Source of the DNA: Allobacillus saliphilus | Lineage (GTDB): Bacteria > Bacillota > Bacilli > Bacillales > Alkalibacillaceae | Assembly: GCF_018138385.1 (NCBI RefSeq) | Contig: NZ_JAGSIE010000007.1 | Location: 1-64,000 of the forward strand | Length of the DNA: 64,000 nt | Direction: 5' to 3' | Shown here: piece after piece, positions 53,131 through 59,010 of the stretch | Position numbering within the stretch: the stretch's first letter is position 1 | Layout: each line of letters starts with the position of its first letter | Notes under the pieces: model-generated | Seen by the model: the letters and a program-made list of their open reading frames with translations, nothing else | Databases searched by the model: none | What the model was told of the DNA's origin: nothing | Translations under genes and position numbers: made by a program

Positions 53131-53862
53131 TTACACCTCCTTTACGTACTCTTTCAGATAAATAAAATCTTCATTGAGTAATATAAATACAGCAAGAATA
53201 TACTTGCGATTTCGCTCAATTGTTTTTTTGCTGACGTTAACAAGGGGTAAAATTTTTTTAATCGGCAACCGCTTTTTTTCCATAACATATTGGCGTATTT
53301 CTGGTTGCTCGTATATAATCTTCGCAATCTTTTGAGCCTGTCGTTTCGCATCTTGGTGCTTCGGTGAAAATTTCACCAATTCTGCAAAAGATAGATTGTA
53401 TTTACGTAATTGTTCGTTATATTCTTCGATTTCAATTTGTCTGTTCCAGGCGTGTTCGTTTTCGATAAATTGATTCTTTGAAAGCTCAGAAACACTTTTT
53501 TCATCGGTATACGTCTCATTCGTATCATCTGAATATTCAAGAGGAATCATTCGACGATGATGCTTTTGTTGACGAATGTAATCAATTACTTTTCTTGAAA
53601 TCACCAGTCGGGCAAACGTAAAAAACGAACTACCCTTACCTGCTTGAAAAGAATCAATTGCTTCGTTAAAAGCAATTAAACCAATACTGAATTCATCGTC
53701 TTGCTTTTGATCGATATACCTTTTACAGACTTTCGACACACTGGTCGCGATGAAAGGCTGGTAGTCTTCAATAAGACGCTGACGAAGCTTTTCGTCTCCT
53801 GCTTGCACTTGGAGAACTTGTTGCTCGAGGGTTGTGTCATTTTTCTTCTGTCGGCTGAACAC
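53131..53862 (-). CDS. sigI: RNA polymerase sigma factor SigI
   Basis: A 243-aa sigma-70 family factor of the SigI type. In B. subtilis it serves heat stress and wall-related genes and is held by RsgI. Region 2 features QDDEFSIGLIAFNEAIDSF and FFTFARLVISRKVIDYIR; the SigI-specific C-terminal domain has FAELVKFSPKHQDAKRQA and a helix-turn-helix VSKKTIERNRKYI. The start codon is GTG at 53862 with GGGAG 9 bases upstream. Forms an operon with rsgI (6-bp gap). Confidence 0.93.
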   Translation of the reverse strand: MFSRQKKNDTTLEQQVLQVQAGDEKLRQRLIEDYQPFIATSVSKVCKRYIDQKQDDEFSIGLIAFNEAIDSFQAGKGSSFFTFARLVISRKVIDYIRQQKHHRRMIPLEYSDDTNETYTDEKSVSELSKNQFIENEHAWNRQIEIEEYNEQLRKYNLSFAELVKFSPKHQDAKRQAQKIAKIIYEQPEIRQYVMEKKRLPIKKILPLVNVSKKTIERNRKYILAVFILLNEDFIYLKEYVKEV

Positions 53863-53910
53863 CCCTCATCACTCCCAACTCAATTATAGTTTTCGAATCT
53901 TTTATTCGCG

Positions 53911-54840
53911 TTAAGGCTGTTCTTTAGAAGATTTATCATTCGACTTCGGTAAAATGGTATCACCTGTTTGTTCAAGTAATGCTTCAATTGGAATAGCCAA
54001 CCCGATTCGCCCATGCTCCGGGTCATCTTTTGTTGCATAAATAACACCGATAACCTGCCCATCCTCGGTCATGACAGGACTACCACTATTCCCTTTATAA
54101 ACAGGTGCATCGAGCATGTACGCATCTTCTTCAATGGATACAGCATCTGTTTTTCCAATTATTTTTCCCTCGTTGGCTATTCCGCTAAACCGTAACGGGT
54201 TCCCGATAAAATAGATTGATTGTCCAGTTAAATCTCCTGGTTCTTCGTTGACTTCAAGATAAGGAAACTGACTTCCTTCTAAGTCCAAAACAGCTAAATC
54301 AATTTCTTCATATGTATGGATGACTTCAGCAGAATATGGGCCCTTCTCGTTCATATACACCCATAGTTGTTCTCTGTCCTCAATCACATGATGATTGGTA
54401 ATGACATATCCTTCCGGGTGAACAGAAAATCCTGTACCCTTACTCGATCCTGTATCCACTAATGCAATGGATTGCTTGTGCGCTTGCATATCTTCATCCA
54501 TGAATAACGTTACAGACGTTTGCAGAAAATCAATTGCAGGAATCGAAAATATTCTTGGTAAAGCTGCTCCTAAATTAATGACCATAAAAACAGCTATAAG
54601 CCAAAAAACCCATTTTGGAAACGGGGGGCCTTTTGGCTTGCTGTTATTAACTGTTTGTTTATGCATTCCTTTTTGTTCATGAATGATTTCACGAATTTCT
54701 TCTTCCGTAAGATTTTCATACAAATCGTGTTCATCCACAGTTTCAGGTGGAGATTGTTCGTTCAGAGAACGATCTTCCTGTGAATCGGAATTTACATCTC
54801 CGTGATTTGGCCTATGCTCATTTTGGTCTCTGTCACTCAT
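53911..54840 (-). CDS. Membrane-anchored trypsin-like serine protease
   Basis: A 309-aa S1C-type protease without a PDZ domain. A hydrophilic acidic head of about 75 residues, one membrane helix (about 80-100), then the protease domain with triad His in VITNHHVI, Asp in EEIDLAVLDL, and Ser in YKGNSGSPV. It should act outside the membrane. The frame begins at a TTG (54861); GAGGGA before the ATG at 54840 decides the start. It is 48 bp upstream of sigI and 26 bp behind bmrD on the same strand; a functional link to SigI is possible but unproven. Confidence 0.87.
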   Translation of the reverse strand: MSDRDQNEHRPNHGDVNSDSQEDRSLNEQSPPETVDEHDLYENLTEEEIREIIHEQKGMHKQTVNNSKPKGPPFPKWVFWLIAVFMVINLGAALPRIFSIPAIDFLQTSVTLFMDEDMQAHKQSIALVDTGSSKGTGFSVHPEGYVITNHHVIEDREQLWVYMNEKGPYSAEVIHTYEEIDLAVLDLEGSQFPYLEVNEEPGDLTGQSIYFIGNPLRFSGIANEGKIIGKTDAVSIEEDAYMLDAPVYKGNSGSPVMTEDGQVIGVIYATKDDPEHGRIGLAIPIEALLEQTGDTILPKSNDKSSKEQP

Positions 54841-54866
54841 CGTTCTTCCCTCATTTACCAAACGTC

Positions 54867-56882
54867 TTAGGAAACGCTTTCTGGCTGCCTGCCATGTTGC
54901 ATTTCATACATCTTAAAGTATTCACCTTTTTCTTTCAACAAGGAATGGTGTTTCCCTTCTTCTATTATCTTACCATGTTTCAAGACAAAAATTTGATCAG
55001 CTTGCTGAATGGTTGATAGACGATGAGCAATGACTAATGTCGTTCGGCCTGATTTTAAAACATCCAACGCTTTCTGGATCATCGTTTCCGTTTCTGTATC
55101 AATGTTTGCCGTTGCTTCATCCAGAATAAGTATTGCCGGATCAAAAGCCAATGCTCTGGCAAACGATAGTAATTGACGCTGCCCCGTTGAAAATTCATTC
55201 CCTTTCTCTTTGACTGGTTCATCATATTGTAGAGGGAGCTGCTCGATAAACGTATCTGCTCCGACAGCTTTTAACGCTTGAATCGCATCCTCTCGTGAAA
55301 TTGACGGATCATTCATCGTAATATTTGAAAGGATTGTTCCTGTGAATATAAACGGATCCTGAAGGACAATGCCAATATGTTGTCGCGCTTCCTGTCTCGA
55401 CCCAACGGTGATATCCTTCCCGTCAATTCGAATTACGCCATGTGTCGGATCATAAAAACGGAATAACAAGTTCATTATCGTACTTTTACCAGAGCCTGTA
55501 TGTCCGACAAACGCTGCAGTATCTCCAGGTTTTATGGTAAACGTAATATTTTTAAGCACATATTGATCCTTTTCATAAGCAAATGAAACTTGATCAAATG
55601 CAACCTTTCCATCATAGCGTTTTGAAGGTTTTTCTTTGACCGCCTCACCTGGTACATTCAATAATTCAAAAACCCGACTACCAGAAACGCGTGCTTGTTC
55701 TAATTGAGGGAGTTGACTAATAATACGCTCCACTGGCTCAAACAACCGGGTTAAATAATCGACGAATGCATATAGCACACCTGCTGTCACGATACTTGTC
55801 GCATTTAGTGATGCTCCACCGAAGTAAAGAATAAATACAACGAAAGCTAGATTTCTAAACAAATCGACGAGATTAAATGATGAGTAAGAAGTAAATGTGT
55901 TCATTCGTGTTTGGAAATCTCTTTTCTTTTCGTTTAACGCTTCAAATTCATCCTTCATTCGTTCTGTCTGATTGAAAGCTTGAATAATTGGCATACCTTG
56001 AATCGATTCATTAATATTCGCATTAATTTGGCTATTCGTTTCCCGGATGACACGGTTATACTTCCCACCGACTTTTTTATAGACCTTCATCCAAACGTAT
56101 AAGATCGGTAAAAGTACAAGACAAATAGCCGCCAATTTTGCGTTCAATAAGAAGAGTGCGATAAATATGCCGGTGATATAAATAAATCCAGATGCGAAAA
56201 CCTCTAACACTCGCTCATATAACTCTTTAATCGCTTCCGTGTCATTTGTCACTCTCGATAATATAGTTCCAGCTGGCTGATCGACAAAATATGAAACAGG
56301 CAATCGTTGCACATGTTCAAATGCGTCACCGCGCATTTCCTGAACAATCCGATTGGACACATATTGAAGCAAATACGTTTTGTAGTATAAAAAGACAGAT
56401 GCAATGAGAATGAGACCCATATATAAGGCAAGAAGCCATAGAATCGGTTCTATTTCTCTTTTAAAGAATAGAAAGACTTCATTAGCTGCTAGCTTTTCAC
56501 CAGTTGTCTGTATCGAACGTTCTTGATATTCGAACTGAAATTGTCCATTACTATTGTCAATTAGCTTCGCATCTAAAGGTACTCGATCATTTAAGAAGTA
56601 AAAGGATAACCCATCTTGAAATAGTGTAAAAACTTGATTTTGGTTCTCTCCTTGAAGTCTTTCTAATTGAATGCCATTAAAAGTGATTGCCGACTCATCT
56701 TCTGTTTCCACATAATGATTAGCAACAGCGACAATATGGTCGTCAATTAACTTTTTGGCAATGAATGGACCTGTGAGTTCCAGAGCAACCGCAATAATTA
56801 AACAAAATAGTCCAATAAAAATCGTTTTCTTAAATTGCATTGCATAATTAAATAAACGTTTTTCTGTTGATGGATTATTCAT
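54867..56882 (-). CDS. bmrD: Heterodimeric ABC exporter subunit BmrD (YheH)
   Basis: A 671-aa half-transporter: an N-terminal helix, an external insertion of about 90 residues between TM1 and TM2 (about 48-145) as known for BmrD, the remaining helices to about 400, then the ATPase domain. Walker A GHTGSGKST, signature STGQRQLLSFARAL, and Walker B AILILDEATANID with the catalytic Glu. With BmrC it forms a multidrug exporter. It starts 8 bp inside the end of bmrC. The 671-aa length fits YheH of B. subtilis. Confidence 0.9.
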   Translation of the reverse strand: MNNPSTEKRLFNYAMQFKKTIFIGLFCLIIAVALELTGPFIAKKLIDDHIVAVANHYVETEDESAITFNGIQLERLQGENQNQVFTLFQDGLSFYFLNDRVPLDAKLIDNSNGQFQFEYQERSIQTTGEKLAANEVFLFFKREIEPILWLLALYMGLILIASVFLYYKTYLLQYVSNRIVQEMRGDAFEHVQRLPVSYFVDQPAGTILSRVTNDTEAIKELYERVLEVFASGFIYITGIFIALFLLNAKLAAICLVLLPILYVWMKVYKKVGGKYNRVIRETNSQINANINESIQGMPIIQAFNQTERMKDEFEALNEKKRDFQTRMNTFTSYSSFNLVDLFRNLAFVVFILYFGGASLNATSIVTAGVLYAFVDYLTRLFEPVERIISQLPQLEQARVSGSRVFELLNVPGEAVKEKPSKRYDGKVAFDQVSFAYEKDQYVLKNITFTIKPGDTAAFVGHTGSGKSTIMNLLFRFYDPTHGVIRIDGKDITVGSRQEARQHIGIVLQDPFIFTGTILSNITMNDPSISREDAIQALKAVGADTFIEQLPLQYDEPVKEKGNEFSTGQRQLLSFARALAFDPAILILDEATANIDTETETMIQKALDVLKSGRTTLVIAHRLSTIQQADQIFVLKHGKIIEEGKHHSLLKEKGEYFKMYEMQHGRQPESVS

Positions 56883-58626
56883 GCTGGCTCCCTCCTTCCA
56901 TTTGTTGTTTTTTATATTGAGAATAATACCAGTTTTTATTGCGCATTAATTCATGATGACAGCCACGTTCAGTGATTTCCCCATCCTTGAGCACGATAAT
57001 TTCATTAGCATGTTTCACCGCTGATAATCGGTGTGCAGCGATCAACGTTGTTTTACCTTTTCGTTCTTGCTTCAAATGTTCAATGATTTTTGCTTCGGTT
57101 TGACCGTCGACTGCCGATAACGAGTCATCTAGAATCAAAATCTCGGGATTTTTAATAAGTGCTCGCGCAAGTGATACCCGTTGTTTTTGTCCACCGGATA
57201 GTGTTACGCCACTTTCACCGACAAGTGTGCCGAGTCCCTCCGGCAATTCCTCAATATCCTTTTTTAAAGAAGCCATCTCTAAAATTCGGTAAATCTCCGC
57301 ATCAGTTGCGTTTTCTTTTCCGAATAAAATATTTTCTCGAACCGTTTTGGAGAATAAAATATGGTCTTGTGGTACATAACCAATCCACTCACGCGTTTGT
57401 TCTAACGCATAGTCTTGAATTGGATGGTCATTGATGAAAACACTTCCCTCATCACATGGTGGATATTCCCGTAATAGTTGGCGAAACAAAGTCGTTTTAC
57501 CTGCACCTGTTTTCCCAACAATTCCAACCGTTCCTCCTTTATCGATACGTAGTGAAACATCATTTAAGCTAGAGTCAGACGCATTTGGATAACGAAATGT
57601 AACATCGTCAAATATAATTTTTTCAACCCGCTCTACATGAATCGGATTCTTTGGATCGGATACATCCGCTTTTTGGGATAACAATTCTCCAGTACGATCA
57701 AGTGAAGCATTTCCCCGTTGCATGACATTAATCAATTCGCCAACTGCGAACATTGGCCAAATCAACATGCCCAAAAAAATGTTAAACGTAACCAGCTCGC
57801 CGATAGTTATGACACTCTGCATGACAAAAAAAGCTCCATAACCAATCCCAATCGTATAAGAAAGACCGACCAATACTTTGATGGTTGGTTCAAAAAGTGC
57901 ATCCAACTTCGCAACTAAAATATTTCGTTGGAATACATCCTCTGCTTGCTCTTTAAACCTTTCCGTATCCCGGTTTTCTTGCACGAATGCTCGGATGACC
58001 CTTACACCTTGAATCGATTCGAGTGTATTATTATTCAAATCACTAAAGGCCGACTGTGCGTCCATAAAGCGCTCATGAATTTTTTTGCCGTATTGTTGCA
58101 TAATGATTGCCATAATCGGCAAAGGAATAAGCGCAGCAAGAGTCAGTTTCCAATTGATCACAACCGCCATGACACCGATGATCAGAGCCATAAAGATAGT
58201 TGCATCGACTAACGTTAATATGCCGAAGCCTGCGGTGATGTTGAGCGCCCGTAGATCATTCGTACTACGAGCCATCAAATCACCCGTCCGGAAACGACTG
58301 TAGAAAGCCGCTGTCATACGCATAAAATGGTCCATTAGTTTTGAGCGCATTTTTTTCTCTAATAAAATCGCCCTTCCGAATAATGTGTAATCCCAATAAA
58401 TAGACAGCAAATAGCTGACTGTCAATATAGAGATAAACAGAACAACATATTGCGTGAAGTTTTCCTGTGTAAGTCGGTTGTATTGAATTAAATCAATGAC
58501 CTGACCGACCAGTATAGGTGGAATAACGCCTAAAATATTTACAATAATCAGTGCGGAAATCGCTAACGTATACCTTAGCCATTGCTCCTTAAAATACCAT
58601 GATAATTTTCTAAATACGGAAATCAT
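56875..58626 (-). CDS. bmrC: Heterodimeric ABC exporter subunit BmrC (YheI)
   Basis: A 583-aa half-transporter with six helices in the first 310 residues and an ATPase domain. Walker A GKTGAGKTT, signature LSGGQKQRVSLARAL, and Walker B ILILDDSLSAVD with Asp in place of the catalytic Glu, the degenerate site expected for BmrC. The frame continues 12 codons further, but AAAGGAGGG directly precedes the ATG at 58626. In B. subtilis bmrCD is induced by ribosome-targeting antibiotics through a leader ORF (bmrB) and attenuator; an analogous leader and terminator lie upstream here. Confidence 0.9.
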   Translation of the reverse strand: MISVFRKLSWYFKEQWLRYTLAISALIIVNILGVIPPILVGQVIDLIQYNRLTQENFTQYVVLFISILTVSYLLSIYWDYTLFGRAILLEKKMRSKLMDHFMRMTAAFYSRFRTGDLMARSTNDLRALNITAGFGILTLVDATIFMALIIGVMAVVINWKLTLAALIPLPIMAIIMQQYGKKIHERFMDAQSAFSDLNNNTLESIQGVRVIRAFVQENRDTERFKEQAEDVFQRNILVAKLDALFEPTIKVLVGLSYTIGIGYGAFFVMQSVITIGELVTFNIFLGMLIWPMFAVGELINVMQRGNASLDRTGELLSQKADVSDPKNPIHVERVEKIIFDDVTFRYPNASDSSLNDVSLRIDKGGTVGIVGKTGAGKTTLFRQLLREYPPCDEGSVFINDHPIQDYALEQTREWIGYVPQDHILFSKTVRENILFGKENATDAEIYRILEMASLKKDIEELPEGLGTLVGESGVTLSGGQKQRVSLARALIKNPEILILDDSLSAVDGQTEAKIIEHLKQERKGKTTLIAAHRLSAVKHANEIIVLKDGEITERGCHHELMRNKNWYYSQYKKQQMEGGSQHE

Positions 58627-58736
58627 TTGATTCCCTCCTTTTAAACCTGTTCTCAATGACATAGATTGTTTTCGACTTGCTGTATTCGATTTTTAAAACA
58701 TGCGCATAAGTGCACTCAGTAACCTGATTTTAGACA

Positions 58737-58769
58737 CAAAAATGCCGTGGGTGATATAGCCCACGGCAT
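58737..58769 (-). terminator. Terminator/attenuator upstream of bmrCD
   Basis: A perfect 10-bp stem, ATGCCGTGGG (58742-58751) with CCCACGGCAT (58760-58769), 8-nt loop; on the minus strand TTTTTGTGTC follows. It lies between the 27-codon leader ORF and bmrC, about 110 bp before bmrC, so transcription of bmrCD from the leader promoter must read through it. Confidence 0.78.
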
Positions 58770-58863
58770 GCGCATTCGATGAAAAGATTAAATCAACAAT
58801 TCATTATTCATTCATCTTATAAGCATCTTAATAAATTGAACTTACAAAATGGATATGAACTGC

Positions 58864-58947
58864 TTAATCACGATCGACTCCAGCAAGGTCACGGACTTTT
58901 CGTGTACTATGCAATTTTACTTTGTTCATTTGTTTACTATTCAACAT
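58864..58947 (-). CDS. 27-aa leader peptide (BmrB-like position)
   Basis: An ORF of 27 codons with a very strong ribosome binding site (AAAGGAGG, 8-9 bases before the ATG at 58947) and a SigA promoter 36 bp upstream. The peptide is MLNSKQMNKVKLHSTRKVRD followed by LAGVDRD, and is basic. Downstream comes a terminator, then bmrC. Position and layout match a leader peptide for translation-dependent attenuation, as reported for bmrB in B. subtilis; I do not know whether the sequence is related. An independent small protein is the alternative. Confidence 0.65.
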   Translation of the reverse strand: MLNSKQMNKVKLHSTRKVRDLAGVDRD

Positions 58948-58982
58948 TTCCCTGACCTCCTTTAAATTGATTTGCTGTTAAG

Positions 58983-59010
58983 AGTATACCATTAAAAGTT
59001 AAGAATTCAA
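58983..59010 (-). promoter_or_regulatory. SigA-type promoter of the bmrCD leader
   Basis: On the minus strand TTGAAT (59010-59005), a 16-bp spacer and TATACT (58988-58983). The transcript would start near 58976 with a leader of about 30 nt before the small ORF. Confidence 0.65.

Follow-up and report, generated by a model that had tools for sequence, protein, structure and literature searches.

The closest described counterparts of the leader analysed here precede bmrCD and vmlR in Bacillus subtilis and lmo1652 in Listeria, the last of these genes presumably being a bmrC homologue. For the B. subtilis bmrCD leader, attenuation with lincomycin was shown experimentally, and translation as well as the terminator were required (Reilman et al. 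2014, PMC4191407). The leader ORF, bmrB, is 162 bp long and encodes 53 aa from a GTG start; 119 bp separate its end from bmrC, and its positions 136 and 140 are Cs of the terminator. Erythromycin also induces the system, and kanamycin and gentamycin do not switch on bmrCD, for a reason that the paper leaves open (PMC4191407). The vmlR leader resembles the model proposed below in that a ribosome stalling as it initiates on a uORF decides between an anti-antiterminator, an antiterminator and a terminator, with lincomycin as an inducer (PMC9226507). It differs in having a three-codon uORF in the bulge of a hairpin, with a single-stranded Shine–Dalgarno (SD) sequence before it, whereas our leader has 27 codons and an SD that is itself a pairing strand; an ABCF gene lies downstream, and vmlR has an additional SD-sequestering hairpin (PMC9226507; likened by description). 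In Listeria, the leader RNA Rli59 likewise has a small ORF and precedes a gene for an ABC transporter, lmo1652, the likeness again being one of description, and its termination is reduced by lincomycin, erythromycin and chloramphenicol (Dar et al. 2016, as cited in the review PMC8079631).

The window, i.e. the whole stretch of 64,000 nt of Allobacillus saliphilus DNA that was analysed, shares with the B. subtilis locus the transporter genes, a leader ORF and intrinsic terminator in corresponding position and a translation-dependent antitermination model (PMC4191407). In B. subtilis the terminator is inside the 53-aa, GTG-initiated BmrB, whereas the window has only one leader ORF (ORF1) and a terminator that begins 94 nt after its stop. 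The first-pass annotation had read a SigA-like promoter, a 27-codon ORF with a near-perfect SD, a 10-bp terminator and bmrCD from the minus strand, and all of these were confirmed in place. The features are as follows (G001 is the one other genome of the genus that was compared).

58983..59010, minus: sigma-A type promoter TTGAAT-16-TATACT (TTGAAT at 59010-59005, TATACT at 58988-58983)
58950..58958, minus: strand 1, AGGTCAGGG, the ORF1 SD with the bases that follow; forms the 5′ half of the anti-antiterminator (1:2 duplex)
58864..58947, minus: ORF1, 27-codon leader ORF, MLNSKQMNKVKLHSTRKVRDLAGVDRD then stop; frame and length conserved in G001
58873..58897, minus: strand 2, AGTCCGTGACCTTGCTGGAGTCGAT, 3′ end of ORF1; the 39-nt block around it is unchanged in G001
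58758..58780, minus: strand 3, ATCGAATGCGCATGCCGTGGGCT, terminator 5′ arm and preceding bases; unchanged in G001
58742..58769, minus: intrinsic terminator, perfect 10-bp stem ATGCCGTGGG/CCCACGGCAT then TTTT, −18.3 kcal/mol
58742..58751, minus: strand 4, CCCACGGCAT, terminator 3′ arm
58700..58707, minus: second copy of ATGCGCAT, downstream of the terminator (from the whole-leader fold)
58633..58641, minus: bmrC SD, AAAGGAGGG, invariant in G001
56875..58626, minus: bmrC, yheI-like ABC half-transporter (Pfam ABC_membrane and ABC_tran)
54867..56882, minus: bmrD, yheH-like ABC half-transporter (Pfam ABC_membrane and ABC_tran)

The promoter has an extended −10 element, with TG one base before TATACT (TGG before TATACT), and in G001 its hexamers are identical and its spacer is longer by one base. 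The ORF1 SD, AAAGGAGGT, is near-perfect, and strand 2 has two possible partners, strand 1 (core CCGTGACCT) and strand 3. The genes bmrC and bmrD overlap, and both are directly downstream of the leader; the best solved relative of BmrC in the PDB is YheI/BmrC (E 4e-223), and BmrD matches SmdB/tet46B-type ABC exporters with scores below the curated cut-offs. Neither promoter-like sites (7 versus 5.7 in shuffles) nor terminators (2 versus 1.1, by count) are commoner in the window than expected by chance, so conservation must carry the case for the leader. Close after bmrD, at 53700-54861 on the minus strand, we noticed by eye what looks like a gene for a membrane-anchored trypsin-like protease and then another gene, which we take to resemble that of the sigma factor SigI; no terminator was found on the minus strand at 54700-55100, and read-through from bmrCD could reach both genes.

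In G001 the layout is identical to that of the window and BmrC is 92% identical. Alignment of related bmrC leaders, which the first-pass annotation had proposed as a check, shows the SD, the ORF1 frame and the terminator kept in this genome. Strands 1–4 differ at 1 of 97 positions versus 52 of 260 in the rest of the leader (window versus G001, Fisher p 4e-7, with strand limits that were partly drawn on that very alignment). The first 17 codons of ORF1 are changed at 10 of 51 positions, with no indels, while its C-terminus, KVRDLAGVDRD, is identical. Since the N-terminal part changes with frame and length kept, the peptide sequence is apparently not what is conserved.

Two palindromes ATGCGCAT, proposed at first to flank the terminator and form alternative structures, are indeed present at 58775-58768 and 58707-58700, and they do not make such a structure; the alternative helices come instead from the ORF1 SD, the ORF1 end and the terminator 5′ arm. 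The second copy, disrupted in G001 (TTGCGCAT), could pair with 58768-58775 only if transcription reads through. Located 3′ of the terminator T-run, it cannot influence the termination decision, and judging by its position and its loss of integrity in G001 it is probably not part of the switch.

To follow the pairing strands beyond the genus we used a set of 110 leaders (the window, 29 loci of relatives and 80 named loci), 109 of them usable after exclusion of one (L028) in which the match begins at residue 87. The bmrC leaders of relatives show a three-helix attenuator, with pairing 1:2, 2:3 or 3:4 (the terminator). In many of them the ORF1 SD reads GGAGGTCACG, which is complementary to a CGTGACC close to where ORF1 ends; the terminator often has GGTCACG again on its 5′ side, with CGTGACC on its 3′ side. 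In other groups both partners have changed in concert: B. inaquosorum (L031) has GGGTTTGC/GCAAACCC, L019 has pairing of the GGAGGAACC/GGnnnTTCCTCC type and Metabacillus kandeliae (L057) has GGGCTG/CAGCCC, and none of 100 shuffles reaches any of the three.

The 1:2 duplex of the window (−17.1 kcal/mol) is reached by none of 500 shuffles, and that of G001 by 6 of 500. An ORF1 was picked in 93 of the 109 loci, the filter giving none in 16; among the 93, 57 have a 1:2 duplex that at most 5 of 100 shuffles reach, and the duplex of the other 36 does not exceed that level. Matched strands also pair better than strands swapped between loci: −17.5 versus −13.2 kcal/mol for 1:2 (53 non-redundant loci) and −15.7 versus −12.5 kcal/mol for 2:3 (n=52), with 0 of 2000 permutations reaching the difference in either case and kinship among loci ignored in these statistics. 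The swap test also demanded GAGG before the start, which gave 65 loci and, after removal of near-duplicates, 53; ten picked ORFs were removed by hand as mis-picked, both here and in the masked folding below. The 2:3 duplex of the window is rich in G-U pairs and bulges, and its energy is no better than that of shuffles (202 of 500; 68 of 500 for G001). The sequences, then, show which parts are present, that these are conserved and that the pairing strands co-vary across loci.

Folding with and without a ribosome, also proposed in the first-pass annotation, was done on leaders cut at the terminator loop, with the ribosome footprint forced unpaired, for the 82 loci in which a terminator follows ORF1 within 220 nt. 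The mean sequestration of the terminator 5′ arm was 0.26 without a ribosome, 0.55 with the start codon masked and 0.21 with the stop codon masked. Masking of the start codon raised it by >0.2 in 42 of the 82 loci and lowered it in one, as against a rise in 41 of 328 controls shuffled from start codon to terminator. Thus, start-codon masking favours the antiterminator across relatives. In G001, sequestration rises from 0.04 to 0.71 (reached by 2 of 250 shuffles), and strand 3 is paired with strand 2 in the masked fold. The effect is weak in the window, from 0.04 to 0.33 (13 of 250 shuffles; 0.33-0.38 over codons 1-3), and this partial switch depends on the assumed start of transcription, the value being 0.07 if the RNA is three bases longer. 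The competing antiterminator helix is therefore supported over the set of relatives, clear in G001 and weak in the window. In both genomes of the genus a ribosome at codons 1-3 is effective and one at codons 6-10 is not. A ribosome at codons 15-25 sequesters the terminator arm of the window too (0.56-0.64), via strand 1, which leaves doubt about the active stall site. With the full leader of the window at equilibrium, the terminator forms at a probability of at least 0.99 in every ribosome state; thus the model needs kinetic competition.

We consider it likely that the bmrCD leader is a transcription attenuator that senses ribosome position. Anatomically, the leader ORF and terminator fit the translation-coupled attenuator suggested in the first pass, and this anatomy is conserved in relatives. 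For the species of the window we infer translation of ORF1, stalling at codons 1-3, a response to drugs and use of the 2:3 helix. An undisturbed ribosome would traverse ORF1 and depart; helix 1:2 would then form, strand 3 would be left free, the terminator 3:4 would fold and bmrCD would stay off. The outcome would be the same if no ribosome loaded. With a 50S inhibitor, the ribosome would be halted within the first few codons of ORF1 and cover strand 1; strand 2, now free, would pair with the emerging strand 3, the terminator would be blocked and transcription would enter bmrCD. Because the N-terminal sequence of ORF1 is unconserved, the position at which the ribosome stops would be decisive, rather than the peptide. 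Under macrolides, ribosomes usually get past the first codons, and erythromycin is not known to stall ribosomes at codons 1-3. The induction of the B. subtilis system by erythromycin is thus a poor fit with a stall confined to these codons.

The alternative that survives best, and that we still regard as unlikely, is a fixed terminator: the hairpin would only end a short transcript or shield bmrC, ORF1 would be incidental and the switch would have decayed in the genus. It would agree with the shuffle-level energy of the 2:3 duplex in the window and with the fact that both genomes of the genus have one terminator and lack a second mini-ORF (ORF2, described below) that the other 15 loci examined in the family carry. 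Yet the four strands are nearly frozen between the two genomes while the loop, the spacer and the N-terminus of ORF1 drift, the ORF1 frame is kept and G001 has a clear predicted switch. Somewhat less probable still is a sequence-specific arrest, in which ORF1 would encode an arrest peptide (C-terminus KVRDLAGVDRD) that stalls the ribosome late, whereupon strand 1 would pair with strand 3. The identity of this C-terminus in G001 and the effect of a ribosome at codons 15-25 in the window are what one would expect from it; against it, most relatives read strand 2 in another frame (VTLP etc.), so that the RNA seems to be what is kept, and 39 nt without any change, synonymous or other, point to a constraint on RNA. 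A ligand-binding riboswitch or a protein-bound leader, which the structured, conserved leader with alternative helices might suggest, is very improbable given that Rfam at gathering scores gave no family for the whole window or for 10 related loci (sub-threshold matches numbered just four, with E 1.4-4.9), that a good SD lies within strand 1 and that the B. subtilis counterpart needs translation, its induction being abolished by ErmC methylation (PMC4191407).

If the leader is a ribosome-position-sensing attenuator, the question arises which ORF is the sensor in the B. subtilis type. No 53-aa BmrB-like ORF with an internal terminator was found in the window, and the small peptide had been suggested as a possible solution different from BmrB. 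This is probably not so. B. subtilis itself is outside the locus set, and B. inaquosorum (L031) was used as a close relative; here a frame with exactly the published properties of bmrB starts 16 nt inside ORF1 (MPRNLRVYQTVSYWRGKPYVLFN), out of frame with it, so that ORF1 is the shared element. Across the 14 close relatives L031-L044, the frame equivalent to BmrB stays open as far as the terminator in five and stops before it in nine; among L031-L037, those with an MP[RK]N ORF1, it stops early in four of seven. For this count, homology of the site 16 nt downstream of the ORF1 start was assumed rather than aligned; the assumption is safe for L031-L037 and less safe for L038-L044. By comparison, an ORF1 passing the SD filter was found in all 14. 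With the BmrB frame often closed and ORF1 always present, these sequences suggest that ORF1 is likely the sensor and that annotated BmrB probably is not; a 53-aa BmrB frame with the terminator inside is then probably not a true defining feature of the B. subtilis type of attenuator. The fluorescence of BmrB-GFP, in frame and expressed from a xylose-driven plasmid, speaks against this; a chromosomal fusion gave no fluorescence, and the construct lacking the bmrB start also altered alternative starts or ribosome binding sites upstream (PMC4191407). As the fluorescence was plasmid-borne and the start deletion touched upstream starts or ribosome binding sites, the GFP data do not separate ORF1 from BmrB.

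In relatives, a second mini-ORF, ORF2, lies between the terminators and bmrC. We defined it as an ORF ending in [DE][GSDN]G-stop within the last 80 nt before bmrC, and found it in 66 of 109 loci. The motif is present in 66 of 114 ORFs of this zone versus 2 of 398 ORFs farther upstream, both of the latter being additional copies farther upstream, one in L011 and one in L013. These two leaders have two ORF2-type peptides each (RLEGG and RTEGG ends), and in L011 a 57-aa ORF lies between them. The ORF2 end is commonly [D/E]-[G/S/D]-Gly-stop, the final Gly in 66 of 66 following from the motif definition. Stops are UAG (45), UGA (12) and UAA (9); the length is often 18-20 codons (18 or 19 in 31 of 66), and the last Gly is encoded by GGC (33), GGT (21), GGA (10) or GGG (2). 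Given such synonymous variation, the peptide seems to be selected. Of all 109 loci, 40 have two or more terminators according to a finder that misses some hairpins (e.g. that of L030 and the first one of L003-L005), and 34 of these 40 belong to the 66 with ORF2.

ORF2 is present in the B. subtilis-group loci L031-L037 and absent from the window (L001) and from L002; the second terminator is absent from the window as well. In the family of the window ORF2 was found in 15 of 17 loci examined, the exceptions being the window and G001, and by this comparison the leader of the window looks like a reduced form of a wider two-ORF module. The 43 loci without the motif include Paenibacillus and Saccharibacillus, and near variants of it occur (DPASG in L079, EINSG in L078). 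Paenibacillus, Fontibacillus and Saccharibacillus loci among L081-L110 have a different leader ORF before bmrC, with no ORF2 motif found; in several Paenibacillus it reads MFNxxxxx..QLNTG..PKSLFRS, possibly a third architecture. In some genomes of the family a repeat of ∼200 bp, possibly mobile, precedes ORF2; in L004 and L006 it has inverted ends GTTGTTGTTATGGTGA ... TCACCATACAACAAC, and in L028 only the end of this repeat is visible in the stretch upstream of bmrC.

Coupling through unmasking of the bmrC SD was considered as a role for ORF2 and found no support, the unpaired probability of this SD being 0.665 in native leaders and 0.67 with upstream sequence shuffled (n=66). Lying after the terminators, ORF2 is unlikely to act on them. 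Our best guess, held with low confidence, is that ORF2 acts on translation of bmrC in a way linked to termination. A literature search that mostly did not cover subscription papers gave no published account of ORF2 or of the MFS-gene module described below, and ORF2 appears to be undescribed so far.

The ORF2 DNA pattern with UAG was found in 97 of 397 genomes of the order, and the reversed pattern in 12. We fetched 90 loci with the pattern, which are not every place on the match list and in which L139 and L226 are the same place. An in-frame ORF2 directly precedes bmrC in 63 of them and four more have an out-of-frame match before bmrC; in L220 the match is in frame and bmrC is further off. 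Out-of-frame matches before other genes make up 19 of the 90, and the remaining in-frame matches precede two MFS genes, in G051 (L225) and G093 (L139/L226). The best solved relative of the MFS protein is LmrP (E 1e-24), and both leaders carry the whole module: ORF1, terminators and ORF2. In L226 a frameshift splits the MFS gene after the module, indicating a pseudogene or a sequencing error. The module also precedes a 63%-identical MFS gene in L231 (G044) and L232 (G087), where ORF2, seen by eye, ends in ...MDSG-UAG; G044 has, in addition, a bmrC with its own module (L022, ...LEGG). LmrP-like genes are not owners of the module in general: it was found in at least four of 30 upstream regions (L228, L230, L231 and L232; L228 and L225 are from G051, L226 and L230 from G093), the scan having missed the ORF2 of L231 and L232 and seven of the 30 regions having been inspected by eye, so that more are possible.

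A sequence marker for ORF1, AAGGAGGTCACG..ATG, was rejected as a general one. It occurs at 27 places in 25 of 150 genomes, and 12 of the 27 are leaders with a short ORF1: bmrC leaders by place (L113, L114, L116, L117 and L136) or by tblastn (L118 and L130-L133), and leaders of an MFS gene (L111 and L112). At L115, L122, L127 and L137 tblastn with BmrC and BmrD gave no match; the other 11 places were judged by the ORF that follows, which is a long frame in ten and 48 aa in one.

Taken together with the ORF2 data, a portable two-ORF resistance module is a tentative possibility that we would not yet favour. ORF1 would set transcription by ribosome position, and ORF2 would be a second, termination-stage sensor acting on translation of the pump, for example if release of the peptide, close before the pump SD, were slow or sensitive to drugs. 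The module would serve both BmrCD and an LmrP-like MFS pump, exporters unrelated to each other, and would be reduced to ORF1 in the genus of the window.

Most likely, then, ribosomes jammed by antibiotics turn on a multidrug pump through a short leader ORF and an RNA off-switch. Attenuators of this kind are already known and the window has a reduced variant of one; what is added is ORF1 as the likely sensor and the apparently undescribed ORF2 in the relatives. The model gives a structural account of why drugs that hold ribosomes early in the ORF could induce bmrCD and kanamycin and gentamycin would not, erythromycin being an awkward case. Since annotated BmrB is probably not the sensor, ORF1 is indicated as the ORF to mutate in B. 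subtilis. Beyond this locus, a conserved mini-peptide, ORF2, adjoins multidrug pumps in many Bacillaceae genomes.
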